Positions 722 to 64,000 of a stretch of DNA of 64,000 bases are shown one piece after another. The notes below the pieces were generated by a model. It was not told where the DNA came from. It did not search any database and worked only from the letters and a program-made list of their open reading frames with translations. The DNA is from Rhodococcus qingshengii. GTDB taxonomy: Bacteria; Actinomycetota; Actinomycetes; Mycobacteriales; Mycobacteriaceae. The first letter of the stretch is position 1; each line of letters starts with the position of its first letter. Where the stretch lies: the NCBI RefSeq assembly GCF_021025955.1, contig NZ_JAJNCL010000001.1:930001-994000 (forward strand). Reading direction: 5' to 3'. The position numbers and the translations under genes were made by a program.

Positions 722-2857
722 CTACTGCACGGTGACGGTGGTCGGAAGCGCGGCGGGCGCCGCAGGTGTGCGCAGGAACGCCGGTCCCCACCAATTTGCG
801 TTGCCCATCAACGTGACCAGGGCTGGGACGAGAAGCATCCGCACCAATGTGGCGTCGAGTGCGAGGGCGATGATCATGCCGATTCCGATGAAGCGCATCG
901 GGGTCAGCTCGGAGAGTGTGAAGGCGCCGGTGACGAGGATCAGCAGGGTGGCCGCTGCGGTGACGACGCGGCCGGTTCGTGTTGCTCCGATGAGGATCGC
1001 TTCGTCGGTGCTCGCTCCGGCGTGTTTGGCCTCGACCATGCGGGAGATGAGGAACACCTCGTAATCGGTGGAGAGTCCGAAGACGACGGAGATCACCAGG
1101 ACAACCATTCCCGCGGCGAGTGGGCCTTCGCTGACACCGAGCAGGTGGGAGAGGTGCCCGTCGAAGAAGATGAGGGTGAGGATCCCGAAGGTTGCGCCCA
1201 AGCTCAGGAACGCTACGGCAATTGCTTTGAGGGGCAGGACGATCGATCCGAAGGCGAGCAGCATCAGCAGCAGGGTAGCTCCGGCCATGATGGCGATCAT
1301 GACGGGAAGCCAGTCGATGATGGCGTCGACGCCATCTGCGGTGATCGCACTCAGGCCGCCGATCTGCAGGTCAACACCGTCTGGGGTGGGGAGGCCGCGG
1401 ATGTCCTCGACTGCCGCCATCGCAGCTTGTGATCGATCGGGGACCGACAGCTGCGCTTGCAGGACGGTGATCGCTTCGTTGGCGCCGACGACGGCGACAT
1501 TGGTGACGCCGTCGACAGCGGCGACGGCGCTGCGCAGTGCGGCGATCGCGTCGCTGGGTGGGGTGGTGTCGTCTGTGCCGGTGGCGAGGATCAGGACGCC
1601 GCTGTTGGCGGCGGGGAATGCGGCGGCGACGGTTTCGGCGCCGATCCGCGCCGAACTGCCCGGCGGAAGAGCGGTGTGGTCGACGTCGCCGAGTTTGATG
1701 CCAGTGACCGGTGCCGCGAGGAGCAGTAAGGCCGTGATGATAGCGGCGGCGATGACACCGGGGCGGCGTAGGACAGCGGAGGTGACCGTGCCCCAGAAGC
1801 GTTGGGCTCTGGCCTCGCCGTGTTCGAAGGCTCCGGTGCGCCAACTCCACGTGCTGATGCGGTGGCCGAGCAGCGCTAACGCCGCCGGGAGCACGGTCAG
1901 GGACATCGCGGCGGCAACCGCGACGGCGGACATGGCGCCGAAGCCCAGGGATTTGAGCATCGACTGTGGGAAGACGAGTGTTCCGGCGAATGCGCACATC
2001 AGGAGCAGTGCGGAGAACGCCACGGTGCGTCCGGCGGTGGCCAGGGTGCGGGCGATTGCAGTGGGGGTGTCGGCGCCCTCCCGGGCGAGTTCTTCGCGGA
2101 AGCGGCTGACGATGAAGAGGCCGTAGTCGATGGCCAGGCCGAGACCAAGGAGCGATGCGATGTTGACGGCGAAGACGTTGACGTCGACGAACTCGGAGAT
2201 CAGGCGCAAGGAGGCCAGTGCGCCGAGGACGGACAGGACACCGACGAGGACCGGGAGGGAGGCGGCGACGAGTCCGCCGAAGACGAGGACGAGCACGGCG
2301 AGAGTGACAGGCAGGGACAGTGATTCGGCGAAGACGAGGTCGCGTTCGGATTGGTCGTTGATCGCTGTTGCGAGAGCGGTGAATCCGGTGACGTCGGTGT
2401 CGACGCCGGGGACACGCAGGTGCGGTTCGATCTCGTCGAAGGCGGCGATACGTTCGTTCTCGTCTCCGGCGGCGAACACGACCGCCAACGCTTGGGTGCC
2501 GTCGTGCGAGCGGAGATACGGGGCGGCGGCGGGGGTGTTCCAGTAGGTCAAGACCGGCCGGTCGAGGAGGGCGGGGTCGATCGAGTCGAGACTGCGGCTG
2601 ATGTCGTCGCCGATGTCGTCGAGGGTGCGCCCGTCCGGAACGGTGTACACGGCAACGGCATCGGGGGTCTGCCTGCCGAAATGTTCTTGCACGATGCGCT
2701 CGACCTGCATGGACTCGCTGCCGGGGTCGGAGTAGCCGCCCGCGCCGAGTTTGTTCATCACCGTCGATCCCCACGCTCCGGCGATGAGGACGAGCGCGAT
2801 GGTACCCAGCAGGATCGTCCAGCGGCGTCGAAGGATCACTCTCGCCCACACGTTCAC
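722..2857 (-). CDS. MMPL/RND-family lipid exporter
   Basis: A 711-residue RND-superfamily protein of the MMPL type. One N-terminal membrane helix (about residues 13-35) is followed by a periplasmic domain, a block of five to six helices (about 175-330), a second periplasmic domain and a last helix block (about 510-700). Both halves carry the family signature near the DY pair: DYGLFIVSRF in the first half and TDYEVFLISRM in the second, where the buried Asp relays protons. The GTG start overlaps the stop of the formyltransferase gene (GTGA), so the two are translationally coupled. MMPL proteins of mycolate-containing bacteria export lipids and lipopeptides. Here the likely cargo is the beta-lactone product, which is inferred from operon position. 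Confidence 0.93.
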   Translation of the reverse strand: MNVWARVILRRRWTILLGTIALVLIAGAWGSTVMNKLGAGGYSDPGSESMQVERIVQEHFGRQTPDAVAVYTVPDGRTLDDIGDDISRSLDSIDPALLDRPVLTYWNTPAAAPYLRSHDGTQALAVVFAAGDENERIAAFDEIEPHLRVPGVDTDVTGFTALATAINDQSERDLVFAESLSLPVTLAVLVLVFGGLVAASLPVLVGVLSVLGALASLRLISEFVDVNVFAVNIASLLGLGLAIDYGLFIVSRFREELAREGADTPTAIARTLATAGRTVAFSALLLMCAFAGTLVFPQSMLKSLGFGAMSAVAVAAAMSLTVLPAALALLGHRISTWSWRTGAFEHGEARAQRFWGTVTSAVLRRPGVIAAAIITALLLLAAPVTGIKLGDVDHTALPPGSSARIGAETVAAAFPAANSGVLILATGTDDTTPPSDAIAALRSAVAAVDGVTNVAVVGANEAITVLQAQLSVPDRSQAAMAAVEDIRGLPTPDGVDLQIGGLSAITADGVDAIIDWLPVMIAIMAGATLLLMLLAFGSIVLPLKAIAVAFLSLGATFGILTLIFFDGHLSHLLGVSEGPLAAGMVVLVISVVFGLSTDYEVFLISRMVEAKHAGASTDEAILIGATRTGRVVTAAATLLILVTGAFTLSELTPMRFIGIGMIIALALDATLVRMLLVPALVTLMGNANWWGPAFLRTPAAPAALPTTVTVQ

Positions 2858-3549
2858 GGGCGCTCACTTTCGGTCGTGGGAGCAGCTGCGAGGGAGGCGG
2901 CCAGGTCGGGGTAGAGCGGGGTGAAGACACCTAGATTCGCGGCGCGAGCGTATTCGGGGTTGGCGCGGCGTCCGGCGAGGTCCGGGAGCCGCGATCGCCC
3001 GAAGTAGCCACCGCCGCGGGCGCGGGGTGTGATGGGGGTGAGGGCGTCCGCGCGGACGGCGTCGAGGTTGCGTTCGAAGAGGGTGTGGCAGGCGCGCAGG
3101 CCGCTCATCATCACGTCTTGGAAGCCGTCCTGAGGGTCGATCGGGAAGTCCTCGGTGTCGAACACGGCTCCGGTGTCGATGCCGGTGTCGACGGCGTGCA
3201 GGGTGGCGCCGTAGGTGGTTTCTCCGGCGAGGATGGCGTGCACGATCGCGATCTCGGGCAGTCCGCGGTAGGTGGGCAGGGGGCCGTTGTGGATGTTGTA
3301 GATCCGCAAGTCCGAGCCGACGAGTGGTGCCCGCAAGATGGTGGGATTGTTGATGGAGAACACCACGTCGTCGGTGGTGGCGCCGCGGAGGATGTCGTAG
3401 TCGTTGTTGACGTCGTCGGTGCGCAGGATCCGGTGATCGCCGGGGATGTCTACCTGGTCGTCGACACAGACGAGATCGACGGTGTGCCCGGCGCTGTCGG
3501 CGAACCGGACGGCGCGCCAGAGCAGCGATCCGCCGCCGATGAAGATCAC
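2854..3549 (-). CDS. lstF: formyltransferase, LstF-like
   Basis: A 231-residue protein of the Fmt/GART-type 10-formyl-tetrahydrofolate-dependent formyltransferase fold. The catalytic Asn-x-His signature is present as NIHNGPLPTYRG (about residues 92-103), and the downstream catalytic Asp lies in DTGIDTG (about 129-135). It is shorter than methionyl-tRNA formyltransferase and lacks its C-terminal tRNA-binding domain, as expected for a small-molecule enzyme. In lipstatin assembly LstF formylates the amino group of the esterified amino acid, and I infer the same here. The GTG start overlaps the NRPS stop (GTGA), and its own stop overlaps the MMPL start. The family is sure and the exact acceptor is inferred. 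Confidence 0.9.
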   Translation of the reverse strand: MIFIGGGSLLWRAVRFADSAGHTVDLVCVDDQVDIPGDHRILRTDDVNNDYDILRGATTDDVVFSINNPTILRAPLVGSDLRIYNIHNGPLPTYRGLPEIAIVHAILAGETTYGATLHAVDTGIDTGAVFDTEDFPIDPQDGFQDVMMSGLRACHTLFERNLDAVRADALTPITPRARGGGYFGRSRLPDLAGRRANPEYARAANLGVFTPLYPDLAASLAAAPTTESERP

Positions 3550-6530
3550 GAGTTCACTCCTGCGCGTGCGGTGGTCGCGGCGGCGTGGACGCGGCCGAGG
3601 GTCAGGTGATGGAGCAGGCCTTCGAGCTGGGCGACGAAGACCGGTTCTGCTGCTGCGCCGACGACGGTGCGGGAGACCTTGGCGAGCATCTCCACCGAGG
3701 CGAGGGAATCGCCGCCGAGGGCGAAGAAGTCGGAGTCGGCGCTCAGGGTGTGGACGTCGAGGCGCAGGACGTCGGCCCAGATCGCGGTGATCGCGGTCAG
3801 GTCGTCGTCGGCGACAGTGGCCGGTGCTTGTGCGGTTGCCGGTGCGGGGGATGCGCCGGGCAAGCGGGAGGTGTCGAGTTTGCCGTTCGCGGTCAGGGGC
3901 AGCTCGTCGACGAAGTGCAGGGTGGACGGGATCATGTAGGCGGGCAACCTCTCCGCGAGGAAGCCGCGGACCGTGGTGTCGTCGGAGTGGTCGGCGATCA
4001 CGTAGGCGACGAGGACGTTTCCGCCGTCCTCTCGTGCGCGGCCGAGGACGGCAGCTCGGCTGACCCCGGGGCAGTGCTCGAGCACCGATTGCACTTCGCC
4101 TGGTTCGACGCGGTTGCCGCGGATCTTGACCTGGTGATCGGCGCGACCTACGAAATCGAGTTCACCGCTCGGGAGGAGCCGGGCGAGATCCCCGGTGCGA
4201 TAGGTGCGTTCACCGCTCGGCAGGTGCACGAAGCGTTGCGCTGTCAGCTCGGGGCGCGCGAGGTAGCCGCGGGCGAGCTGCGGACCACCGAAGTACAGTT
4301 CGCCGACTTCCCCTGCCGGTACGGGCTGTTGGTGTTCGTCGAGCAGGAAGACCGTGGTGTTCGCGGCGGGGTGTCCGATCGGGATCGACGGCGCCGCCGG
4401 GTCGGGGAAGCCGATGACGTGTGAGGTGCACACGATGGACAGTTCGGTGGGGCCGTAGCTGTTGAGCAGGTGCGCGTCGGGGCCGAAGAACGTGCGTGCT
4501 TTCGCCGCGAGGGCGGGGTGTAGTTGTTCGCCGCCGATGATGACGGTGCGCGGGGTGGGGACGTCGATGCCCAGACGGACGATGACCTCGAGCAAGCTCG
4601 GGGTCAGCAGGAAGGTGTTGGCGCCGGAGTCGCGCAGCATGGTCTGCAAGGTGAGGTGGGAGATGTCGTCGGGGATCAGGGTGACGGCGCCGCCGGTGAG
4701 CAGGGGACTGAAGAACGCTGCGCAGGCCATGTCCGCGGCGGGGGTGTGATAGTGCGCGAAGCGGGTGTCGGGGCCGAGTTTGTACCAGTCGCTGGCGGAT
4801 TCGAGGTAGTTGACGATCCCGCCGTGGGGGACGAGTACGCCTTTCGGTCGTCCGGTCGATCCGGAGGTGTAGGTGACGAAGGCGATGTCGTCGGCGGTCA
4901 CCGGGACGTGGACGGGTTCGTCGGTGTCCTGGTCGATGTCGTCGACGACGACAACGTCGATGCCGGTGCTGACGAGATCGCGTAGGTGTGGCCGTGTCAG
5001 CAGCAGCGCCGCGTCGGAGTCGGCGACGGTGTCGGCGAGGCGGTCAGCGGGGTGTTTGGGGTCGAGGGGCAAGAACGCGGCCCCGGCCCGCAGGATCGCC
5101 ACTTGCGCGACCATCCCTTCGACGGACCGGTCGGCGAGTACGGCGACGATCGATCCGCGGCCGATGCCGCGGCGCAGCAGCTCGGCGGCGACAGCGTCGG
5201 CCCACCAGTCGATTTCGGCGTACGTGTACTCGCTGTCGGGGGCGACGACGGCGACGGCGTCGGGGCGGGTGCGGACCTGCAGTTGGAACATGCTGTTCAC
5301 GTTCTGCCGGTTCGCCGGGCGGTCGATGCCTCGCGATGGTGGAGCGGGTAGGGCGGCGGCGGAATCGAATTCGGCGACGATCCGATCGAGAAGCGCCTCC
5401 AATCGTTCTGCGACACCGCGGCCCGCCCGGCAGGAGACGGTGATCTCGGTGCGCGTGCCCGACTCGACGACGACGAACGAGATCGGCACCAACCCGGTGT
5501 GCACCGGCAGTGCCCGCACCGCGGTGGCCGCGAACCCGGGCGCCGACAGCGCCGCACGGTCGATCTTGCCCGCGTGGGAGACGATCGCAGAGACCAGGTT
5601 TCGGTTCGTGCGGGCACCGAAGGCGTGCACGGACGCGAGGATGCGGCGGGTGATCGGGGCGGGGATCTTCGCCAACCCGCCGTTGTCCATCTCGTTGAGC
5701 TCACGCCCTTCGACCATGCCGACGAGCAGGCGTGCGTTGATCTCCGCTGCGCTCTGCCCCGGATCCGCATTGAGGAACAGCGGCAGCGCCAGGTTCGCGG
5801 TCGATCGGATCGCCGGATCGTGGCGGCGCAGATCCACCGGCACCATCAGCCGGACCGGGCGGCCGGTGGTGTCGGCGAGGACCGCGGCGATCCGGGCTAC
5901 CGCCGACGGGTGGGTGCCGTCGACGCTGCGGTGGCGCCACAGGAACCGTTCGCCGCCGCGGATGGGTGCCCCGGCGCCGAGGGGGGATCGGTACGTCGGC
6001 AGCAGCCGTGTGGGGGTTCCGGATGCGCCGATGCGGTCGACGAGGGTGTGATCGGCGGTGGTGTCCGGCGCGCCCAGCGGCTCCTCGCCGCGCAGGACCC
6101 GGAACACGTCCGCGGCCCAGGTGCCCAGGCCCTTGGCGTCCATGACTCCGTGGAAGGCGCGGAAGATGACGGTCGTCGGGTCGGAGGTGACGAGCACGAC
6201 CTCGGTGGTGGCGTCCGCGGTGACACCGAGCGGGCGGTTCAGGATGGGGTTCGCATCGAGTGCGGTGAAGTCCACGCCGCCGTGTTCGACGATTTCGAGG
6301 TGCGGGGCGAGGCCGCTGTCTACCCAGCTCTTGCCCCGGCGGACCAGCCGTGCGCCGGGGCAGGCGTGCGAGGCGCGTTCGACGGCGCGGCGAAGTGCGT
6401 CGACGTCGATGTCACCGGCGCCTTCGACGATGAGTTGGATGGCGAACGGTTCGGCCAGGGGCTCGGTAGCTAGGTACAACCGTTCGGTCGCCGAAATCGG
6501 TCGTGTGAACACAGGGGTGGTCGATGTCAT
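3546..6530 (-). CDS. lstE: single-module NRPS (C-A-T), LstE-like
   Basis: A 994-residue nonribosomal peptide synthetase module. Residues 1-400 form a condensation/acyltransferase-like domain with an HxxxD motif (HGVMD, about 127-131). Residues 410-900 form an adenylation domain with TYTSGSTGRPKG (A3), NSYGPTELS (A5), YRTGD (A7) and LTANGKLD (A10). A carrier domain follows with LGGDSL (phosphopantetheine Ser about 942). There is no thioesterase domain. In lipstatin the matching LstE loads the amino acid that is esterified to the fatty beta-hydroxy group. I chose the ATG at 6530 because GAGG precedes it by 5 nt; the GTG two codons upstream lies inside that site. Substrate pocket: the A4-region Asp is followed by Met, unlike the usual Asp-Ala leucine codes, so the amino acid is uncertain. 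Confidence 0.93.
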   Translation of the reverse strand: MTSTTPVFTRPISATERLYLATEPLAEPFAIQLIVEGAGDIDVDALRRAVERASHACPGARLVRRGKSWVDSGLAPHLEIVEHGGVDFTALDANPILNRPLGVTADATTEVVLVTSDPTTVIFRAFHGVMDAKGLGTWAADVFRVLRGEEPLGAPDTTADHTLVDRIGASGTPTRLLPTYRSPLGAGAPIRGGERFLWRHRSVDGTHPSAVARIAAVLADTTGRPVRLMVPVDLRRHDPAIRSTANLALPLFLNADPGQSAAEINARLLVGMVEGRELNEMDNGGLAKIPAPITRRILASVHAFGARTNRNLVSAIVSHAGKIDRAALSAPGFAATAVRALPVHTGLVPISFVVVESGTRTEITVSCRAGRGVAERLEALLDRIVAEFDSAAALPAPPSRGIDRPANRQNVNSMFQLQVRTRPDAVAVVAPDSEYTYAEIDWWADAVAAELLRRGIGRGSIVAVLADRSVEGMVAQVAILRAGAAFLPLDPKHPADRLADTVADSDAALLLTRPHLRDLVSTGIDVVVVDDIDQDTDEPVHVPVTADDIAFVTYTSGSTGRPKGVLVPHGGIVNYLESASDWYKLGPDTRFAHYHTPAADMACAAFFSPLLTGGAVTLIPDDISHLTLQTMLRDSGANTFLLTPSLLEVIVRLGIDVPTPRTVIIGGEQLHPALAAKARTFFGPDAHLLNSYGPTELSIVCTSHVIGFPDPAAPSIPIGHPAANTTVFLLDEHQQPVPAGEVGELYFGGPQLARGYLARPELTAQRFVHLPSGERTYRTGDLARLLPSGELDFVGRADHQVKIRGNRVEPGEVQSVLEHCPGVSRAAVLGRAREDGGNVLVAYVIADHSDDTTVRGFLAERLPAYMIPSTLHFVDELPLTANGKLDTSRLPGASPAPATAQAPATVADDDLTAITAIWADVLRLDVHTLSADSDFFALGGDSLASVEMLAKVSRTVVGAAAEPVFVAQLEGLLHHLTLGRVHAAATTARAGVNS

Positions 6531-6570
6531 GGGCACCTCGGAATATGTTGGGGGACTTGGCAGCTGAATG

Positions 6571-7611
6571 TCACTTCAAGGTTCGGGTGATCTCGGCGAT
6601 GCCGCCTTGCGACTGGACCCAGTCCTGGAATTCGAGCAGTCCGCTGTCCCGGTCCACGACGGGGACGTATCCGAAGTCGCGGCGCGCGGCAGTGGTGTCG
6701 AACGTCGAGGTGCGGGTCATGAGCGCGAGGACATATGTCGAGAGGGGAGGGGAGTACCTCACGGCGAGGTACGGGATCTTCCAGATCGTGTCCAGGACCG
6801 TGACGGCGGCGCGGACCACTGCCATGTTCGCCGCCCGGGTGGGTGCGGCGAACCCGAACGATTCGGCGACCTCACCCATGAACGGCCAGATGTTGGTGAT
6901 CTCGGCGTCGGCGATGAAGTAGGCCTTGCCGCCGACGTTGTCGGAGGTGGCCGCTTTGACGCAGGCGTCGACGATGTTGTCGACGTGGCACAGTGAGGCG
7001 TACACCTCGCGCCCTCCGGACAGGTTCGGCAGGGTGCCCGCCTGAGCGCGCCCGAGCAGTCGCACGATCGGCCCGGACCGGTCCCCTGGCCCCCAGATTG
7101 CGCGAGGCCGGAGCGCGCAGGTGGTGAATCCGGGCTCGTTCGCGGCCAGCACTGCCTGTTCGGCGGCGGCTTTCGTCTCGGAGTACAGGTTCAAGAATCT
7201 GCGCGGGTACGGGACGGTTTCGTCGATGTCGATCTGGTCGCCGCCGTCGTATTCCATCAACGCGCTCGGGCTCGAGATGAACACGAATCGGCTGACGCCG
7301 TTGCGGCGCGCGGAATCGAGAAGGGTGGTGGTGGCGGTGACGTTCTCTTCGACGAATTGTGCGCGGACGCCGCGTTCGTCGACGCGAGCGGCGCTGTGGA
7401 TGACGACGTCGATGCCCTCGGTGGCGCGGGCGAGGGACTGCGGATCGGTGAGGTCGCCGTAGACGAGGGTCAGGGCGGTGGTCTCGCCCAGGTCGCGTAG
7501 ATCGCTGGTCGGTCGGACCAGGATCGAGATGTCGTGCCCGCCGTCGGCGACGAGCCAGCGCACGAGTCGTCCACCGAGGAAGCCTGAAGCGCCGGTGACC
7601 AGTACCTTCAT
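6571..7611 (-). CDS. lstD: NAD(P)-dependent 3-hydroxy/keto-acid reductase, LstD/OleD-like
   Basis: A 346-residue extended short-chain dehydrogenase of the 3-beta-hydroxysteroid dehydrogenase/OleD type. The Rossmann motif GASGFLG is at residues 7-13. The catalytic Ser lies in FISSPSA and the Tyr/Lys pair in YSETK. In OleD- and LstD-type pathways this enzyme reduces the 2-alkyl-3-keto acid made by the KASIII pair to the 3-hydroxy acid before lactonisation. I chose the ATG at 7611, preceded by AGAAGAGAA; the 84 residues that could be read upstream are Pro/Arg-rich and overlap the neighbouring gene. The ATG overlaps the stop of the small membrane protein gene (ATGA). The NRPS gene follows after 40 nt. 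Confidence 0.92.
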   Translation of the reverse strand: MKVLVTGASGFLGGRLVRWLVADGGHDISILVRPTSDLRDLGETTALTLVYGDLTDPQSLARATEGIDVVIHSAARVDERGVRAQFVEENVTATTTLLDSARRNGVSRFVFISSPSALMEYDGGDQIDIDETVPYPRRFLNLYSETKAAAEQAVLAANEPGFTTCALRPRAIWGPGDRSGPIVRLLGRAQAGTLPNLSGGREVYASLCHVDNIVDACVKAATSDNVGGKAYFIADAEITNIWPFMGEVAESFGFAAPTRAANMAVVRAAVTVLDTIWKIPYLAVRYSPPLSTYVLALMTRTSTFDTTAARRDFGYVPVVDRDSGLLEFQDWVQSQGGIAEITRTLK

Positions 7612-7901
7612 CGTGTTCTCTTCTCGTCGTCGTCGGAGCGGCGGGGTTGGGTTGTCCACCAGGTCATTCCGAAGATCAGCGTCAATGCTGCGGTCGCTGT
7701 TCGGGAGCGGTGGCCGTCGGCGCGGCGCAGCGCGGCCGGGATCTGAGCGGGATGGACGATCAGGGACAAGAACGCGTCGATCCACCAGGCAGTGCGGATC
7801 AGGGGATGCCGGAGGCGGTGACCACGGAGCTGGGTGAGGGCGCCGTAGGCCAGGAAGATCCATCCGAGGATCGGGATGGTACGCAGTGCAATGGTTTTCA
7901 T
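7608..7901 (-). CDS. small membrane protein inserted between lstC and lstD
   Basis: A 97-residue protein with ATGA overlaps at both ends: its ATG overlaps the stop of the AMP-ligase gene and its stop overlaps the reductase ATG. It must therefore be a real, coupled cistron. Residues 4-22 are a hydrophobic segment, a second Trp/Ile/Leu-rich segment covers about 43-62, and a third covers about 73-88. The C-terminus is a charged Arg/Asp/Glu tail. The lipstatin operon as I know it has no gene at this place. It could anchor the soluble enzymes to the membrane or help pass the lipid product to the MMPL exporter; both are guesses. I recognise no family. Confidence 0.78.
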   Translation of the reverse strand: MKTIALRTIPILGWIFLAYGALTQLRGHRLRHPLIRTAWWIDAFLSLIVHPAQIPAALRRADGHRSRTATAALTLIFGMTWWTTQPRRSDDDEKRTR

Positions 7902-9559
7902 GCTGCCACCGTGGTGTCGAGTTCTCCGGCTGCCCACACCGTGAGCTTCTCGCGGCCGATCTTCGCGTTGTGCCGGATGTCGACGGGGAAACCGGGATGG
8001 AACAGGAAGTCAGCGACCGGTGCCGTCAGCGGGAACTCGGTACCGCGTCGGCGCAGTGCCTCGGCGATCGCGTCCTGGTCGTGGCCGGGTTGCAGTTCGA
8101 CGCACAGCACGGGGCGTTGCCGACCGCGGGCACCGACACCGACCAGGGCGGTGCGGGCGACGCCGTCGACGGTGTTGAAGATCTGCTCGACCTGCACCGA
8201 GTACATCGGTCCGTCGCTGGTCTCGAGGCGCTGGCTCTTGCGTCCGCAGAACCAGATGCGGGCCTGATCGTCGACCCAGCCGACGTCGCCGGTGCGGTGC
8301 CATATCCGGTCACCGTCGGTGATCTTGCCGGTCAGATTTGCAGTTGGGGGCCAGTAGTAGCGGGCGCTGACGTTCGGGCCGGACACCACGATCTCCCCGA
8401 TGTCGCTGCCGATCTGCAGCGAATCGGACCAACGGGGCAGCGGGTCGTCGGTCACGGTGATGATGCGGACCTCGATCCCGGGCGCCGGGCGTCCGATGCA
8501 GGTGCCCTCGCCGTTGCGGGTGCGGTCGACGAGCCCACCGAGAAGCTCACGCGATTCGATCGAGGACATCGGCAACGCTTCGGTGGATCCGTACCCGGCG
8601 TGGACCTGAGCGTCCTCAGGCAGCACCTCACGCAGGCCGGTCACCACGTGATCGGGAACCGGTGCGCCGCCGGAGAACACCGACCGCACCGTCGGCATGA
8701 GTGATCGGTGCCGCCGGGCGTGATCGAGCAGTGGACCCAGGACGGCGGGGGAGGCGAACAGCGTGTGTACCTGGAATCGGTTGATCGCGTCGACGACGTG
8801 CAGTGGGTCGGTGGCGCCGACTTTGCTCGGAGTCAGCGGCGGCAGAACCAGGCTCGATCCCAGCAGCAGATCGAGTACTCCGAACATCGGCAGCGTCACC
8901 AGCGACGTCTCGAGGTCTTCGCGTGCCGCCAAGGTTCGGGTCTGCTCGACCATCGCCTTGAGGTTGCCGTGGGTCATCTCCACCGCTTTCGCGGGGCCGG
9001 TGGATCCGGTGGTGAAGGCGATCATCAACATTTCGTCGTCCTCGGCGATGACCGTCGACTTGGCCGAGGTTGACGGGGTGCGCCCCAACATCGCCAGCGT
9101 CTGTCCACCCCACAGCCAGCGGCGACCGACCGTGATCGAGGTGTGAACCCCGCGGAAGGTGCGCCGGAACAGCACCCGCACCGCATGCGCCTGCGGGATT
9201 CCGATGAACGCCTGCGGATCGACCGCGGCCAGGCACCGCAGCATCGGGCGCAGTCCCATTCCCGGGTCGATGACGACGGGGACGGCTCCGGCCTTGAACA
9301 GTCCGAACAAGATCGCGTACAACTCCGGACCGGGGGTGACCAGAACGATGGTGCGAGTACCCGCCGTGACGCCCGAGGCGGTGAAGCGCTGGGCCAAGGC
9401 GTCGGACCACTGATCAAGTTCGCGGTAGGTGATCTGCTCGTAGTCCGGAAGCGCCCCAGCCGGGGTGCCGGTCGCGTAGGTCACCGCGGGGCGCTGAGGG
9501 TGCTGCGCGGCGAGGTCGCGGAACAAGTCGATCGAGCCGCAATAGGTGGGGGCGGTCAT
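7898..9559 (-). CDS. lstC: acyl-AMP ligase / beta-lactone synthetase, LstC/OleC-like
   Basis: A 553-residue ANL-superfamily enzyme. The nucleotide-binding loop TTGSTGPAKAVEMTHGN lies at about residues 180-196, followed by GYGSTEALP (A5-like) and HRTGDVGW (A7-like). OleC and its relatives adenylate a beta-hydroxy acid and close it to a beta-lactone, and the lipstatin homologue LstC is assigned this role. The C-terminal catalytic Lys region is not the standard one of CoA ligases, as is usual for OleC, though I cannot align it here. The ATG at 9559 overlaps the lstB-like stop. Its own stop overlaps the small membrane protein gene. Confidence 0.92.
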   Translation of the reverse strand: MTAPTYCGSIDLFRDLAAQHPQRPAVTYATGTPAGALPDYEQITYRELDQWSDALAQRFTASGVTAGTRTIVLVTPGPELYAILFGLFKAGAVPVVIDPGMGLRPMLRCLAAVDPQAFIGIPQAHAVRVLFRRTFRGVHTSITVGRRWLWGGQTLAMLGRTPSTSAKSTVIAEDDEMLMIAFTTGSTGPAKAVEMTHGNLKAMVEQTRTLAAREDLETSLVTLPMFGVLDLLLGSSLVLPPLTPSKVGATDPLHVVDAINRFQVHTLFASPAVLGPLLDHARRHRSLMPTVRSVFSGGAPVPDHVVTGLREVLPEDAQVHAGYGSTEALPMSSIESRELLGGLVDRTRNGEGTCIGRPAPGIEVRIITVTDDPLPRWSDSLQIGSDIGEIVVSGPNVSARYYWPPTANLTGKITDGDRIWHRTGDVGWVDDQARIWFCGRKSQRLETSDGPMYSVQVEQIFNTVDGVARTALVGVGARGRQRPVLCVELQPGHDQDAIAEALRRRGTEFPLTAPVADFLFHPGFPVDIRHNAKIGREKLTVWAAGELDTTVAA

Positions 9560-10464
9560 TTCGCGTCGGCACCTGCCGTGAGGTGGTACACGGTCGCTGC
9601 GGCGCTCGGTCCGGCTCCGGCAGCGACGAACAGGATCGTCGAATACTCCCCGAGCAGCTTGCCCTGCACCGCGTGCTGGTATGCCACAGGCAGTGCGGCG
9701 GTGTGGGTGTCACCGCCGAGGGCGGGCAGCGCCGCCGCGTCGAGTGCGGTGATACCGAGCTTCGCGGCGAGCAGGGCAGGAAAGCCTGGCGTGGGAGTCG
9801 ATGCGATCAGCACCGTCGACGACAGGTCCGGATCGCTGGCGTCGATTGCGGCCGACGCTGCCGCCAGGGCGACGTCGAGCAGTCGTTCTTCGGCGTCGGC
9901 GTCCCGCTCGACGGTGATGAGGTTGCGGCCGTTCGCGCCCATCGTTTTCGTCTCGACGAACCCGTCGATGACCGACGGGCCGTCCGCGAGTTCGGTGTGA
10001 ACCTGGCCGAAACCTTCAGCGCCCTCGCTGCGTTCGAGGAGAAGGGCTGCGCCCGAGGTGGCGTAGGGGAAGTCGTCCGGGGCGCCTGCGGCGACGGCGC
10101 TGGGGTGCGTGTCCCCGGAGACGACCAGGACACGGCCGGTGCTGCCGGTGGAGAGGATCGCGTCGGCGACCTGGACGGCGTTGAGGACACCGCACGCACC
10201 GTTCATCAGGTCGAAGGAGAAGGTGCGGGGATCGTGTTCGCCGTACTCGAGACCGATACCGGCGTCCTTCTGAATCAGGGCGGCGATCGCCGGTTCGACG
10301 GTGTTGGAATCGCGGTAGACGCCCGTGTTGATCAGCACGCCCACCTCCTGCGGCTCCACGGCGGCGCTGGTGAGCGCCTGCCGGACCGCTCGCGCGGCGT
10401 GGGTGACGACGCTGCCGCTGTCGCGGTCGTAGCTCGTGCCGACGGATGTGATGACGACGCCCAT
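9556..10464 (-). CDS. lstB: KASIII-like subunit lacking His and Asn of the triad, LstB-like
   Basis: A 302-residue thiolase-fold protein of the KASIII/OleA family. The nucleophile-position Cys is kept in NGACGV (Cys91). The regions that should hold the catalytic His and Asn read ASTPTPGF and GGDTHTA, so neither residue is in its usual motif. A Glu in the RDSNTVEPA loop (Glu57) is the candidate for the residue that LstB- or OleA-type subunits insert across the dimer interface to activate the acyl nucleophile. The gene begins 1 nt after the lstA-like stop, which fits a KASIII heterodimer with the upstream protein that performs the non-decarboxylative Claisen condensation of two acyl-CoAs. Confidence 0.88.
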   Translation of the reverse strand: MGVVITSVGTSYDRDSGSVVTHAARAVRQALTSAAVEPQEVGVLINTGVYRDSNTVEPAIAALIQKDAGIGLEYGEHDPRTFSFDLMNGACGVLNAVQVADAILSTGSTGRVLVVSGDTHPSAVAAGAPDDFPYATSGAALLLERSEGAEGFGQVHTELADGPSVIDGFVETKTMGANGRNLITVERDADAEERLLDVALAAASAAIDASDPDLSSTVLIASTPTPGFPALLAAKLGITALDAAALPALGGDTHTAALPVAYQHAVQGKLLGEYSTILFVAAGAGPSAAATVYHLTAGADAK

Positions 10465-10465
10465 G

Positions 10466-11515
10466 TCAGGCCTCCAAGGAAGAGATCGTGGCGGACAGGA
10501 AGCCGGTGACGATGCCCGATGCCGCGGGCACCATGAGAATCTTCGATTCGGCCGCGATGGCGTTCTGCTGCAGCTGATCGTGCAGAACGATGAAGTGTGA
10601 GGTGGTGGAGGTGTTGCCGTACTTTTCGACCACGTTCAACGCTTCCGGCATCGGTGTGCCGAACTCTCGCTCTCCGAGAGCGTTCATGAATGTGACCGCC
10701 GACGCACCGAACTGGTGGTGGATGATGTAGTCGAATTCCTCGTCGGCGAAGGTCGTGCCGGTGGCGGCGAGGTGGTTTCGTTGACTGTTCGTCCACAACT
10801 TGAACCGGTCTTCGTTGTGCATGCGCCGGTTGTCGGTGTAGAGCGCCACACCCGGGTTCTTGTCGCTCGGCATCCCCAAGCAGGCATCGGAGTACTCCGA
10901 TGCGGTCATCAGTTCGATGTAGTCGATGCGATCGCGCTCGTCGACGGATTGGTCGATGACCAACGCGCACCCGGAATCGCCGACGGAAAGGGACGCGAAC
11001 TGCAGGTCGTAGCCGCCGGTGATTTCCTTGACCGCCGTCTCGGAGATCGCGGTGATCGCTTCGCCGCTGACCACCAACCCGTTGCGGACGGCTCCGGATC
11101 GAATCATCCTGTCCAACACGTACGTTCCGGTCATCATGCCCGCGCACGCGTTCGACAGATCGAAGTGAATGGCCCCGGTGGCGCCGAGTTCCTTGGCGAT
11201 CATCGCCGCGAAGGACGGCTCGAAATAGACCTTCGACTCGTCCTTGCTGCGCGAGATCGAGGTGGAGATGACGACATCGAGTTCGTCTGCGCCATAGCGT
11301 GATCGGGACAAGCAGTCCCGTGCGGCCTTGAGGGCGAGCGCGAAGGAATCCTCGAAGTTGCCGGGTGTCTTGTCGTGCACTCGGCGCTCGTGAACTCCGG
11401 TGATGGCAGCGAGATCGAAGGTGGGTTTCTGGGCGAGTCGGCCGATCAGCTCCTCGGTGGTGAGAACCTCGTCGGGCAGATATGCGCCGATTGATTCGAA
11501 TCGTGAATGCGGCAA
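10466..11515 (-). CDS. lstA: KASIII-like condensing enzyme with complete triad, LstA-like
   Basis: A 349-residue KASIII/OleA-family enzyme. The full Cys-His-Asn set is visible: Cys124 in SNACAGMM, His267 in IIHHQFG and Asn301 in YGNTSTT. It should carry the acyl-enzyme step of the condensation that builds the alpha-branched beta-keto acid, partnered by the next gene product. I chose the TTG at 11515 as start: a strong AAGGAG lies 5 nt upstream (11521-11526) and translation from there begins at the conserved SRFESIGAYLP region. The open frame extends to an ATG at 11623, but those 36 residues are unlike a KASIII N-terminus. It is the first gene of the operon. Confidence 0.92.
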   Translation of the reverse strand: MPHSRFESIGAYLPDEVLTTEELIGRLAQKPTFDLAAITGVHERRVHDKTPGNFEDSFALALKAARDCLSRSRYGADELDVVISTSISRSKDESKVYFEPSFAAMIAKELGATGAIHFDLSNACAGMMTGTYVLDRMIRSGAVRNGLVVSGEAITAISETAVKEITGGYDLQFASLSVGDSGCALVIDQSVDERDRIDYIELMTASEYSDACLGMPSDKNPGVALYTDNRRMHNEDRFKLWTNSQRNHLAATGTTFADEEFDYIIHHQFGASAVTFMNALGEREFGTPMPEALNVVEKYGNTSTTSHFIVLHDQLQQNAIAAESKILMVPAASGIVTGFLSATISSLEA

Positions 11516-46155: not shown

Positions 46156-46731
46156 TCATGCACTCGAGGCGGGCCAATTGGTCAGCATCGAATCGAGTGC
46201 CTCAAGGATCCTGGACCAGCTTTCGGCGCTGTCCGGTGCGCTGTGGCTGAACGATCCACCTAACTCGAGGCTGGCGTACCCATGGAAAACGCTGCCCAGC
46301 AATCGAACTGCGTGGGTCTGATCGAGATCGGTGAGGTTGTACCCGCGCAGAATTGATCGCATCATCTGTGAGTGCCTGACGCCCGCGCTCGCGGCCGCGG
46401 CCTCCGGGGTGAGGCGCATCTGTGACGCGGCGTACCGCCCGGGGTGTGCCCTCGCGTAGTCGCGGTACACGTTCGCGAAGGCGGTCAAGGCGTCGCGGCC
46501 GGACCGGCCCGCAACGGCGTCGGAAGCCTGGTCGGCCATCTCTTCCAAGGCAAGTAGTGCGATTCTGGTTTTGAGATCGTGCGAACTCTTCACGTGGGAG
46601 TACAGGCTTGCAACCTTGACGTCGAACGCTCTGGCGACTGCCGACACGGTCACCTGCTCGAATCCCATCTCGTCGGCCAATTCGGCGCCCGCCATGGCGA
46701 GGCGTTCGGGTGTCAGTCCTGCGCGAGGCAT
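46156..46731 (-). CDS. TetR regulator of the adjacent esterase gene
   Basis: A 191-residue TetR-family protein. The helix-turn-helix region reads LAMAGAELADEMGFEQVTVSAVARAFDVKVASLYSHVKSS. The C-terminal domain with HPGRYAASQMR and LRGYNL...LLGSVFHGYASLELGGSF belongs to the WHG-type (TetR_C_33). It is transcribed away from the SGNH esterase gene, and a perfect operator lies between them (46767-46787), so it probably represses both. Confidence 0.9.
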   Translation of the reverse strand: MPRAGLTPERLAMAGAELADEMGFEQVTVSAVARAFDVKVASLYSHVKSSHDLKTRIALLALEEMADQASDAVAGRSGRDALTAFANVYRDYARAHPGRYAASQMRLTPEAAAASAGVRHSQMMRSILRGYNLTDLDQTHAVRLLGSVFHGYASLELGGSFSHSAPDSAESWSRILEALDSMLTNWPASSA

Positions 46732-46766
46732 GTCCGTTGGTCCTGTTCGTCGAGAAGTGAAACCGC

Positions 46767-46787
46767 TTGCCTAAATAGTATAGGCAA
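46767..46787. promoter_or_regulatory. TetR operator overlapping the divergent promoters
   Basis: TTGCCTA-AATAGTA-TAGGCAA, perfect 7-bp arms. It lies 36 bp before the regulator ATG and 53 bp before the esterase ATG, in the AT-richest part of the interval (AATAGTATA resembles a -10 box). Confidence 0.8.
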
Positions 46788-46839
46788 ATTACTGTGTGCT
46801 GTAGTTACGATTTTCGCAACCTATATACAGGTGAATGAG

Positions 46840-48021
46840 ATGAACAGCCAGAGCAGTTGGATTACTACCGCAATTTCCGAGGACATCGTGCGCGGAGCCC
46901 TCGAACTCGAGCGGACCGAACGCGGTGTGCTGACACACCGTCTGCCCGCCAGGGCTCGCACACAATTCGCTGACGGGCAGATGGCAATGGCGCAATCACA
47001 ACCGTCCGGCGTGCGGCTGGTGTTCCAAACCAGCGCTACGGCCATCGAACTCGACACTCTGCCCACGAAAATGATCTACATCGGTGCCCCACCACGACCA
47101 CAAGGGGTGTACGACCTGATCGTCGACGGCGAACCAGCCGGGCACGCAATCGCTGGGGGCGGCAACACGGTGACGATCGACATGGCGACCGGTACCGCTC
47201 AGAGACAGTCCGGGCCCGTCAGCACCATCCGTTTCGCGGGCCTGCCTGCGCGATCAAAGGCTGTCGAGATCTGGTTGCCGCACAATGAAACCACCGAACT
47301 TGTCGCATTGCGGACCGACGCCCCACTCGAACTCGCGGACGAGACGAAGCGTCGCGTGTGGCTCCATCACGGAAGCTCGATCAGTCAAGGCTCCGGCGCT
47401 GAAAGTCCCTCCGGCACTTGGCCTGCTCTCGCAGCCTCCCTCGGCGGCGTGGATCTGATCAACCTCGGGTTCAGCGGCAGCGCTCTGCTGGACCAGTACA
47501 CCGCCCGCGCGATGCGAGACACCGCAGCGGACCTGATCAGCATCAAGATGGGCATCAATCTGGTCAACTCCGACGTGATGCGCCTGCGGGCCTTCACGTC
47601 GGCAATGCACGGCTTCCTCGACACGGTCCGCGACGGCCATCCAGTGGCTCCACTGTTGGTCGTCTCGCCTGTCTATTGCCCGATTCACGAGGACACGCCG
47701 GGACCTGGTGCTTTCGATTTCGACGCGCTTGCCAGAGGCGAAATGCGATTCGTTGCCACCGGAGATCCCGCCGAGCGCGCAGCCGGAAAGCTGACGCTGC
47801 GCTCTATTCGGGAAGAGTTGGCGCGCATCGTAACCCAGCGATCGGCGGATGATCCCAATCTGCATTACGTCGACGGGTGCGATCTCTACGGTGCGGCCGA
47901 GAACGCAGAGTTGCCGCTTCCCGATCAGCTCCATCCGGACGCTGTGACGCACCGTCTCATCGGCGAACGCTTTGCTCAACGTGTATTCGCAGACGACGGT
48001 GTATTCGCCGGCGAAGAGTGA
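46840..48021 (+). CDS. SGNH-hydrolase-type esterase
   Basis: A 393-residue esterase with an N-terminal beta-sandwich region (about 1-180) and a C-terminal SGNH hydrolase domain. Block I is HHGSSISQG (Ser nucleophile in GSS instead of GDS), block II NLGFSGSALL, block III MGINLVN and block V DQLHPDAVTH (Asp-x-x-His). No signal peptide is visible, so it is likely intracellular. The frame is open further upstream, and a GTG at 46831 is an alternative. Regulated by the divergent TetR. Substrate unknown. Confidence 0.85.
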   Translation: MNSQSSWITTAISEDIVRGALELERTERGVLTHRLPARARTQFADGQMAMAQSQPSGVRLVFQTSATAIELDTLPTKMIYIGAPPRPQGVYDLIVDGEPAGHAIAGGGNTVTIDMATGTAQRQSGPVSTIRFAGLPARSKAVEIWLPHNETTELVALRTDAPLELADETKRRVWLHHGSSISQGSGAESPSGTWPALAASLGGVDLINLGFSGSALLDQYTARAMRDTAADLISIKMGINLVNSDVMRLRAFTSAMHGFLDTVRDGHPVAPLLVVSPVYCPIHEDTPGPGAFDFDALARGEMRFVATGDPAERAAGKLTLRSIREELARIVTQRSADDPNLHYVDGCDLYGAAENAELPLPDQLHPDAVTHRLIGERFAQRVFADDGVFAGEE

Positions 48022-62405: not shown

Positions 62406-63881
62406 CTATGCCTTCTGGAGTTGGTCGCCGCGGATCCAGCAGGCGTGGAATCCTGACGGAACTCGCTGCGGCAGTAGGACGCGAGCGACGGGGCCGTCCT
62501 CGATGTTCTCGGCATCGAAGATGTTGATCTCGCCGCGATCCTCTGCTTCGTCGTTGACGAAGCAGACCAGGTAGCCGTCGGTTTCGCTGGTGGAGCCGTC
62601 GCGCGCCGCGAAGGGCGCTTCGGAACCCCATCGTCCCGGTCCGAACTTGTGCTCTTCTTTGGTTTGGGTCTGGGAGTCGAATTTTACGAGTCCGTCGAAG
62701 AGGAGGGTGGGTTCATTCGCGAGACTCATGTTGTACGAGTACCGATGCTCTCGGCCCATGATTCGCGAGTCGACGCTGGGAAACTCGACGTTGGCGTCGT
62801 CGAGCGGCGTCTCGGTTGTCATTCCGGTGCGAAGGTTGAAACGGTACCGGTAGAGCTGCGCATCGAGACGCATGTATGCAAGCATGTTGGACAGTGGATG
62901 CTCGAAGGTGGACTGGTGCTGAGGGTTCTTCACTCGGCAGGCATCCATGATGATCTCGTCGCCCTGTTCCCAGGAGTTGACGACGTGATAGATGTAGCAC
63001 GGTTTCGCCTCGAACCAACGAACGTCCTGGCCTGTCCCGTGGCGGGGGATGACAGCAAAACGGGCGGGTAGAGCCTGATCGTAGAAGATCCGGTACTTGC
63101 CGGCTTTCCGGGCCTCATGGTCTTGTACCAGCGGGAGATCCATGAGGACCGAGTAGTTCTCGGTGATCGCGATGTCGTGCGGCAAGCGGGGGCCGGGAAG
63201 GTCGATCTTTGTTTCATGTGTCTGCGTGCCCTCGGCTCCGATGATTCCGTACCGCAGGTAATCCATATCCGGCCCGTAGTCGAACCAGATGAGCTCGCCC
63301 GTCGTCTCGTCGACTTTGGGGTGAGCCATCATGTCGCCGGCGAAGGTGCCTAGGAAGTCCTGTGCACCTAGTGTTTCCAGCGACAGAGGATCGACGGCGT
63401 ACGGTGTTCCGCAGAGATACCACGTCGAGAGTACCTGGCCGCGGTGGTAGATGACGTCGGTATTGGAGGCGTCCTTGATGCCGAGTCCGTGGCCGTTACC
63501 CCACGGGTTGTCCTTGGGGTTCTCCATCAGTCCGGTCCACAATGCGCCGCCGGCCTCCGATTCCTGCTCGAAAGAACGAGTGTGGACGTACCGATTGCGG
63601 TATCTGACCTTGCCGTTCTCGAAGTGGGCGGCGTGGATCATGCCGTCCCCGTCGAACATGTGGTAACGCCCGGTGGACGGGAACTGACGGTTCGGACCGT
63701 TCCGAAGGTAGACACCGTTGAGGTCCGTGGGGATCTCGCCGATCACAGTCAGGTCCTCAAGTGTCAGTTCATCTTTCACCGGAGCGAACACCCCAAGAAG
63801 GTAGGGGTTGTCTTCGCCGCCGTTCACGGGACGTGCGACCGCGATCGGCGCCTCGCCGGCAGGCAACTGAGTATTCGTCAT
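62406..63881 (-). CDS. carotenoid cleavage/lignostilbene oxygenase
   Basis: A 491-residue enzyme of the carotenoid oxygenase family (seven-bladed propeller with Fe2+ held by four His). Blocks seen: GVYLRNGPNRQF near the start, the iron His in DMMAHPKVD, LPHDIAITENYSVL, YHVVNSWEQGDEI and the C-terminal GFHACWIRGDQ. It cleaves a conjugated double bond with O2 in carotenoids or stilbenes; which substrate is unknown. AAGGA lies 6 nt before ATG 63881, which overlaps the stop of the preceding gene. Confidence 0.93.
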   Translation of the reverse strand: MTNTQLPAGEAPIAVARPVNGGEDNPYLLGVFAPVKDELTLEDLTVIGEIPTDLNGVYLRNGPNRQFPSTGRYHMFDGDGMIHAAHFENGKVRYRNRYVHTRSFEQESEAGGALWTGLMENPKDNPWGNGHGLGIKDASNTDVIYHRGQVLSTWYLCGTPYAVDPLSLETLGAQDFLGTFAGDMMAHPKVDETTGELIWFDYGPDMDYLRYGIIGAEGTQTHETKIDLPGPRLPHDIAITENYSVLMDLPLVQDHEARKAGKYRIFYDQALPARFAVIPRHGTGQDVRWFEAKPCYIYHVVNSWEQGDEIIMDACRVKNPQHQSTFEHPLSNMLAYMRLDAQLYRYRFNLRTGMTTETPLDDANVEFPSVDSRIMGREHRYSYNMSLANEPTLLFDGLVKFDSQTQTKEEHKFGPGRWGSEAPFAARDGSTSETDGYLVCFVNDEAEDRGEINIFDAENIEDGPVARVLLPQRVPSGFHACWIRGDQLQKA

Positions 63882-64000
63882 CGTTTTCCTTCCATCGATT
63901 TGAGCTCCGGTCCCATCCGGGGCCGGATCACCAACTGCGTGCATCGGAACTCGGCGATACGCCGGCCTTCCTCGTCCAGGACGCTCGCATCCCAGAGGTG
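63878..64000 (-). CDS. C-terminal part of a PaaI/4HBT-type thioesterase (partial)
   Basis: The last 40 codons of a minus-strand gene that continues beyond the window: HLWDASVLDEEGRRIAEFRCTQLVI ending MEGKR. The W-D/E-x-x-V-x-D-E-x-G-R-x-I/L-A pattern is that of hotdog thioesterases. Its TGA overlaps the oxygenase ATG (ATGA), so the two form an operon. Confidence 0.6.
   Translation of the reverse strand, partial: HLWDASVLDEEGRRIAEFRCTQLVIRPRMGPELKSMEGKR

Follow-up and report, generated by a model that had tools for sequence, protein, structure and literature searches.

A lipstatin-type operon in Rhodococcus

The DNA analyzed here is a 64,000-nucleotide (nt) stretch of the Rhodococcus qingshengii contig NZ_JAJNCL010000001.1 (positions 930,001 to 994,000), called the window throughout. 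We conclude, with a probability of roughly 85%, that positions 722 to 11515 of its minus strand carry a working lipstatin-type operon of the erythropolis/qingshengii group of Rhodococcus. Lipstatin is the source of the drug orlistat. The conclusion draws on which genes are present and in what order, on their catalytic residues, on purifying selection, and on mobility; the reactions, the amino acid, and the target are predictions. The operon consists of eight genes in the order A, B, C, X, D, E, F, and MMPL. The original prediction had listed seven of these, namely, two ketoacyl synthase III (KASIII) genes, an OleC-like ligase, an OleD-like reductase, a condensation-adenylation-thiolation (C-A-T) nonribosomal peptide synthetase (NRPS), a formyltransferase, and an MMPL exporter. 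All seven were confirmed, in lstA-lstF order, while gene X and the plasmid-derived island around the operon had been overlooked. The overlapping starts were also borne out: most joins are 4-nt overlaps (B/C, C/X, X/D, E/F, and F/MMPL), with gaps of 1 base between A and B and 34 bases between D and E. All eight reading frames are intact, and the G+C content of the operon is 67.1%, versus 61 to 62% in the flanking DNA. With an identical seven-gene order in six named Rhodococcus loci and the whole operon present at 96% identity on two plasmids, the arrangement is far beyond chance.

Gene A (10466 to 11515, minus strand as for all operon genes; 349 amino acids [aa]) encodes a KASIII/OleA-like condensing enzyme (PF08545/PF08541) resembling LstA. 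Its frame is open to 11623, and RefSeq uses the 349-aa start for the 96% identical plasmid copies. Gene B (9556 to 10464; 302 aa) encodes a divergent, LstB-like KASIII partner. PMC12141560 reports a C128/H271/N305 triad in LstA and an essential Glu60 in LstB, and the catalytic residues of A and B agree with this published LstAB pair. The Cys/His/Asn triad of A has the LstA spacing of 143 and 34 residues, and a pattern test of 11 relatives gave the same spacing in all but one (L054, which the pattern did not fit). B scores under the Pfam cutoffs yet retains the LstB-type glutamate as Glu57, within an NTVEPA motif; EPA or EPS occurs in the commonest patterns displayed for each group. A is 57 to 61% identical to its Streptomyces/Kitasatospora counterparts, and B is 41 to 48% identical to those of Streptomyces, Kitasatospora, and Longimycelium.

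Gene C (7898 to 9559; 553 aa) encodes an OleC-like AMP-forming ligase, the proposed β-lactone synthetase. It contains PF00501 without PF13193 (AMP-binding_C) and scores above the cutoff for the general fatty acid CoA ligase family NF006754 (619 bits). Gene D (6571 to 7611; 346 aa; PF01073) encodes an OleD-like 2-alkyl-3-oxoalkanoate reductase. A 430-aa version of D was ruled out: the mechanically called frame covers gene X out of frame, its 84 extra residues being gene X in another frame, and the start was therefore placed at 7611.

The OleA-, OleC-, and OleD-type enzymes are shared with the oleABCD pathway. One alternative is that long-chain olefins are the end product, with the β-lactone only an intermediate. 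OleC and OleD models are among the best pathway-named families for C and D, and an α/β hydrolase gene lies ~1.9 kb to the left of the operon (L165:15895-16872). That hydrolase weakly matches haloalkane dehalogenase models (E values of 1.3e-6 and 5.1e-5, far under the cutoffs); OleB belongs to the haloalkane dehalogenase superfamily. It scores best, however, against enol-lactonase models, exceeds no cutoff among the families listed (25 of 26), and adjoins the operon neither in the two plasmid stretches nor in Rhodococcus sp. KRD162 (G278, from a different genus group), which has a 79% identical copy of the region on another contig. The operon itself has an A-B pair instead of a single OleA, includes X, and shows no hydrolase family among the seven proteins scanned, while E, F, and MMPL play no part in olefin formation. 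An olefin end product is thus most improbable, the least likely of the readings weighed here, and was rejected on the lack of OleB in the operon and the lack of conservation of the nearby hydrolase there; OleB was not searched for elsewhere in the genome or its relatives. The hydrolase was likewise not adopted as a resistance gene, as it is unlinked to the operon in KRD162 and the plasmids.

The NRPS module and its predicted amino acid

Gene E (3546 to 6536; 996 aa; PF00501, PF13193, and PF00550) encodes a single LstE-like C-A-T module, has full-length relatives in lst-type loci, and is followed by the formyltransferase gene. Its carrier domain (3666 to 3794) has a GGDSL phosphopantetheine site; this motif, with its serine, is kept in all 40 of the E rows compared (32 distinct). 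The N-terminal condensation-like domain (residues 1 to 400; 5337 to 6536) bears an HxxxD active-site motif, with the His and Asp conserved in 35/35 rows. This domain matched no Pfam or NCBIfam family, nor any Protein Data Bank (PDB) sequence at an E value of 1 or better, and its condensation fold was recognized by structure prediction, which settles the assignment at the level of the model. Comparable domains elsewhere are similarly elusive to family models: that of a Streptomyces relative (L059) gave only a weak NCBIfam match to wax ester synthase/DGAT (E value of 0.0034; 16 bits against a cutoff of 310), and among the lone Nocardia condensation domains described below, two lacked a Pfam family and one an NCBIfam family.

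The adenylation domain (residues 417 to 886; 3879 to 5288) was compared at the ten positions that we take to set specificity, mapped by motif on the alignment (L051, L061, L063, L066, L070, and all rows of up to 900 aa were excluded, and eight duplicate loci were kept). The code is DMALIGSIVK in the window, with close variants in Rhodococcus, and DMMFVGSLVK or similar in the Nocardia E-F rows. Nine of 13 Streptomyces/Kitasatospora rows begin with DIFALG; the others read DLTKVGEIGK, DLMSQGALAK, DLMGQGVVAK, and DIIALGGVGK, and the Longimycelium code is DGHLAGVIVK. The window code equals that of S. flavotricini (DIFALGGVVK) at 4 of 10 positions. Because it is unlike the nearest Streptomyces codes, the amino acid loaded by E is probably not leucine. 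Amino acids other than leucine occur in the formyl- or acetyl-aminoacyl β-lactones esterastin, valilactone, and panclicin of Streptomyces, which the predicted product would resemble; no operon for them was identified by name here. The DLTKVGEIGK code belongs to an lst-type operon of Streptomyces hygroscopicus ATCC 21589 (L052); we presume that it resembles an asparagine code, and the product of this operon is perhaps esterastin-like.

Formyltransferase and MMPL exporter

Gene F (2854 to 3549; 231 aa; PF00551) encodes an LstF-like formyltransferase. Residues N85, H87, and D125, presumably the catalytic ones, are kept in F and do not vary across the 16 proteins aligned. A check for phage carriage of F found no match.

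The last gene (722 to 2857; 711 aa; PF03176) encodes an MMPL exporter related to MmpL3. It keeps both Asp-Tyr motifs and scores 542 bits against the MmpL3 model NF052608, the cutoff of which is 1400, and we therefore regard it as a shorter relative rather than as the MmpL3 trehalose monomycolate exporter itself. An MMPL gene accompanies 32 of the 36 distinct mycolate-type loci with A to D, the window not counted; in KRD162 the copy is on another contig (L037), and three loci (L130, L137, and L140) have none in the retrieved DNA. None of the 13 nonmycolate loci has one within the retrieved DNA, which reaches mostly ~10 kb downstream (only 1.5 kb in L054).

Gene X is a small membrane protein gene fused to the ligase in Streptomyces

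Between C and D lies an eighth gene, X (7608 to 7901; 97 aa), which shares four-base overlaps with the C stop and the D start. It encodes a small membrane protein with two hydrophobic stretches and a marginal third; the structure model (pLDDT 85, pTM 0.64) has four helices of at least 8 residues. No Pfam family matched X, and the predicted model gave no PDB fold match at an E value of 0.001 or below. A protein search for X gave 3 hits among 10 candidates. The possibility that annotation had missed the gene was rejected, since RefSeq has it as a "hypothetical protein" in both plasmids.

Outside the window, 46 of the 49 distinct loci that have A to D and an lst-type ligase also have an X homologue. 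In all 13 loci from Streptomyces, Kitasatospora, and Longimycelium, as well as in the mycolate-family locus L140, it is fused to the ligase as its C-terminal part, and in the other 32 it is a separate gene. This fusion, together with the gene overlaps, leads us to infer that X is a membrane partner of the pathway enzymes and so an overlooked part of the pathway. Ten positions, among others, are invariant in 32 of 32 rows (P10, G13, W14, D42, S46, H50, Q53, T74, T80, and W81). Of seven pairwise comparisons, six show the most changes at codon position 3; the KRD162 pair, which is very close and has 6 changes in total, does not.

Some loci depart from this pattern. L140 (genome G206) is the only mycolate-family locus with the X-ligase fusion (695 aa). 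In three Nocardia genomes (L127, L133, and L135), X is missing and the ligase runs directly into D. Two further loci, L144 and L148 (genomes G063 and G298), have an A-B-X-D arrangement with no adjoining lst-type ligase and a different acyl ligase downstream in L148, and they represent a further relative of the pathway.

Distribution of the operon

An F-based scan of 84,980 species genomes yielded 45 loci, of which 37 were analyzed and eight weak matches, all in proteobacterial records (L074 to L081), were left aside. The 37 comprise 21 loci with A to D and F, one contig fragment (L037), five Nocardia loci with E and F only, and ten contig-edge or other NRPS settings (L051, L056, L057, L061, L062, L063, L065, L066, L069, and L070). 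Eight of the 21 are from Rhodococcus, and 13 are from Streptomyces, Kitasatospora, or Longimycelium. The order A-B-C-D-E-F-MMPL is found in six of the eight named Rhodococcus loci, and E-F-A-B-C-D-MMPL is found in R. oryzae and R. maanshanensis. In 12 of the 13 other loci the order is A-B-C-D-E-F without MMPL; in Kitasatospora sp. GAS204B, F precedes E.

Compared with the lipstatin operon lstA-F of S. toxytricini, approached through S. flavotricini (L059) and S. katrae (L068), the window operon shares all six enzymes and their order, the LstAB-type residues, and the position of the formyltransferase after the NRPS. It differs in its added MMPL gene, its separate X, and its adenylation code. 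The nearest named copies of the operon are those of Rhodococcus qingshengii and Rhodococcus sp. H-CA8f, in keeping with the mycolate actinomycete host that had been proposed from the window alone.

Related operons in Nocardia

A family search with B matched 76 of 301 genomes at an E value of 0.001, 33 of them (own genome included) with at least 50% identity, and 31 loci at that identity (L112 to L142) were examined. Eighteen, all from genus group g23 (Nocardia), contain A-B-C-D, a 395- to 399-aa homologue of the E condensation domain, and MMPL. None of the 18 has an adenylation or carrier domain or a formyltransferase; the HxxMD motif is kept in all 18 lone condensation domains. Their genes A, B, C, X (in 15 of 18), D, condensation-domain protein, and MMPL thus follow the order of the window operon, from which they differ in lacking the adenylation and carrier domains and F. 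No true F was found elsewhere in these 18 genomes; the best hit (E value of 4.7e-8; ~25 to 37% partial identity) was to unrelated formyltransferases. Five other named Nocardia (L043 to L047) have a full E-F pair with no A to D within 10 kb, and the same genomes hold A-B-C-D, a lone condensation domain, and MMPL on different contigs.

These loci bear on a second alternative, in which the main product of the window operon is a plain dialkyl β-lactone like nocardiolactone, with E and F serving only a side product or some other acceptor. Both the 18 loci and the five genomes with E-F on separate contigs indicate that A to D are usable without E and F. In Rhodococcus, however, E and F sit within one overlapping operon, in lst order and with their catalytic motifs kept, and we therefore regard the plain β-lactone as unlikely and favor the lipstatin-type operon.

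The contrast drawn in the original prediction with the nocardiolactone pathway was partly wrong: the Nocardia operons do lack the adenylation, carrier, and formyltransferase functions, but the presence of MMPL, the lone condensation domain, and X makes them look more like cut-down relatives than like a separate A-D pathway. The condensation-domain tree groups the 18 lone domains into a single clade (100/100) that is sister to the Nocardia E-F clade (99/95) and lies within the fused forms. This tree is midpoint rooted, its root being driven by the long-branched fragment L069, and excludes L037, L051, L056, L057, L061 to L063, L066, L070, L112, and eight duplicates. The A+B tree, which is rooted on a very long branch and carries only SH-aLRT support, nests the 18 Nocardia rows as a single clade (100) within Rhodococcus. 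A root on the Streptomyces side would mean that the Nocardia operon lost its amino acid half. These comparisons suggest that the Nocardia A-D operons are cut-down descendants of the lipstatin type that kept the putative esterifying domain, a testable evolutionary link between the two. PMC7413640 describes 36 nocardiolactone clusters in Nocardia, six of which antiSMASH first labeled lipstatin type, and our 18 operons are likely to be among these clusters.

The operon lies in a plasmid-like island

The operon is part of an ~55-kb chromosomal island that is collinear in blocks with two Rhodococcus plasmids, NZ_CP077418.1 (R. qingshengii TG-1; 592 kb; MOBP) and NZ_CP023721.1 (Rhodococcus sp. H-CA8f; 302 kb). 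Positions 76 to 42496 of the window belong to it, and it extends leftwards beyond the window to G000:C11:920766. The distance from the left backbone end to the lipoyl-ligase-like gene on the right is 60.9 kb in the window genome versus 5.1 kb in genome G001. Most blocks are 88 to 97% identical to the plasmids, and three short ones are 77 to 82% identical. Among 72,556 plasmid records, only these two carry the complete operon, at 96.2 and 96.4% identity over 100% of its length. True F occurs in 5 of 28 same-genus genomes (own genome included), and the operon is therefore patchy within the genus. In KRD162 the operon genes are 94 to 98% identical at the DNA level, while the FabH-like protein of the window genome is 64% identical there versus 99% in G001 and G022.

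Since the island looks like an integrated plasmid and has an IS481 transposase close to the operon, the operon could be a silent or decaying passenger. All eight frames are intact, however, and dN/dS against the KRD162 copy is below 0.36 in every gene (0.03 to 0.31 for the seven genes other than X, which is too short, at 3 + 3 changes, to be judged). A passenger is therefore very unlikely, and the operon is better read as a working one.

Several neighboring genes were noted in the island. The IS481-family transposase, which scores above its cutoff, lies ~5 kb left of the operon (L165:13006-14052; G000:C11:925005-926051), and related DNA is present in G012, G017, and G022. A Cmx/CmrA-family chloramphenicol efflux gene, above the NCBIfam cutoff, lies left of the window (L165:10484-11710; G000:C11:922483-923709). 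On both plasmids the operon adjoins a CmrA efflux gene and genes for a shikimate-derived product, which we guess to be of the corynecin/chloramphenicol kind.

Proposed pathway and significance

From family knowledge and the published LstAB work, we propose that an A-B heterodimer would couple one fatty acyl-CoA with a second, 3-hydroxylated one, head to head and with no decarboxylation. D would then reduce the β-ketone, and C, together with the membrane protein X, would close the β-lactone. E would load one amino acid, probably other than leucine, and its N-terminal condensation-type domain would esterify it to the chain hydroxyl; F would formylate the amine, and MMPL would carry the lipid across the membrane. 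The predicted product, an N-formylaminoacyl β-lactone lipid that may acylate serine hydrolases, would be new, a fair inference helped by the differing adenylation code. The suggestion that the chains are drawn from mycolate metabolism was not adopted, as nothing was found in its support.

Several points weigh against this interpretation. The evidence is genomic, and nothing found explains the source of the 3-hydroxyl. C reaches 537 bits against the olefin β-lactone synthetase model NF045786, under the cutoff of 900, and the best NCBIfam model for D, OleD (NF042422), gives 212 bits, under the cutoff of 580. The closest structural match of the condensation domain is a so-called dehydratase (AzeD, 8s6l), so the condensation fold alone is not proof of ester formation. 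The assignment of DIFALG to the leucine of lipstatin is presumed, and we know of no code that equals DMALIGSIVK. Finally, since the fetched set holds no locus named S. toxytricini, the comparison with LstA to LstF rests on relatives and published residues.

If the reading holds, lipstatin-type chemistry extends to Rhodococcus as a plasmid-borne, self-contained eight-gene cassette with a different amino acid predicted on the β-lactone, and, should the exporter carry the product, mycolate bacteria would both produce and withstand compounds of a class related to tetrahydrolipstatin. Tetrahydrolipstatin inhibits Rv3802, a putative enzyme of the mycolic acid pathway, according to PMC2625445. As a speculation to which we assign a low probability, the operon could be a plasmid-borne weapon among mycolate bacteria: the exported product would acylate serine hydrolases of the envelope (mycolyltransferases, cutinase-like esterases, and Pks13-type thioesterases); X, through its invariant D42, S46, H50, and Q53, would be a membrane subunit holding the condensing enzymes, reductase, and ligase and passing the lipid to MMPL; and the Nocardia operons would have arisen by shedding the amino acid half.

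Two earlier papers report that counterparts of LstB are common and invariably adjacent to LstA (PMC12141560) and that actinobacteria with oleACD clusters but no oleB make β-lactones (PMC7064751); for specialists, the present variant may therefore be useful rather than shocking. No Rhodococcus lipstatin cluster was evident by title in the literature on Rhodococcus and lipstatin, which does not establish absence from print. Word-start searches of the available text of a genus-wide Rhodococcus survey (PMC5550956) found no "lipstatin," "lactone," or "formyltransferase." The obtainable parts of the R. erythropolis MGMM8 paper (PMC10819586), including its antiSMASH table of five strains, and of PMC12915292 contain no "lipstatin," and a word search of PMC12153302 found none of five terms. 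What is new here is the exporter, the separate X, the different adenylation code, the plasmid island, and the plausible descent of the Nocardia operons.

Other genes of the window and genome

The genome holds a second KASIII pair, 35 and 33% identical to A and B (L151:6114-8082; G000:C22), with no match to C, D, E, or F in 18 kb; its neighbors encode a universal stress protein and a trehalose-phosphatase/GH65 fusion. A gene for a GDSL-type lipase/acylhydrolase (46579 to 48021, plus strand) lies close to the island's right edge. Beyond the island, an RPE65-type carotenoid oxygenase gene (62406 to 63944, minus strand) has relatives of only 33 to 45% identity in the other genomes compared.

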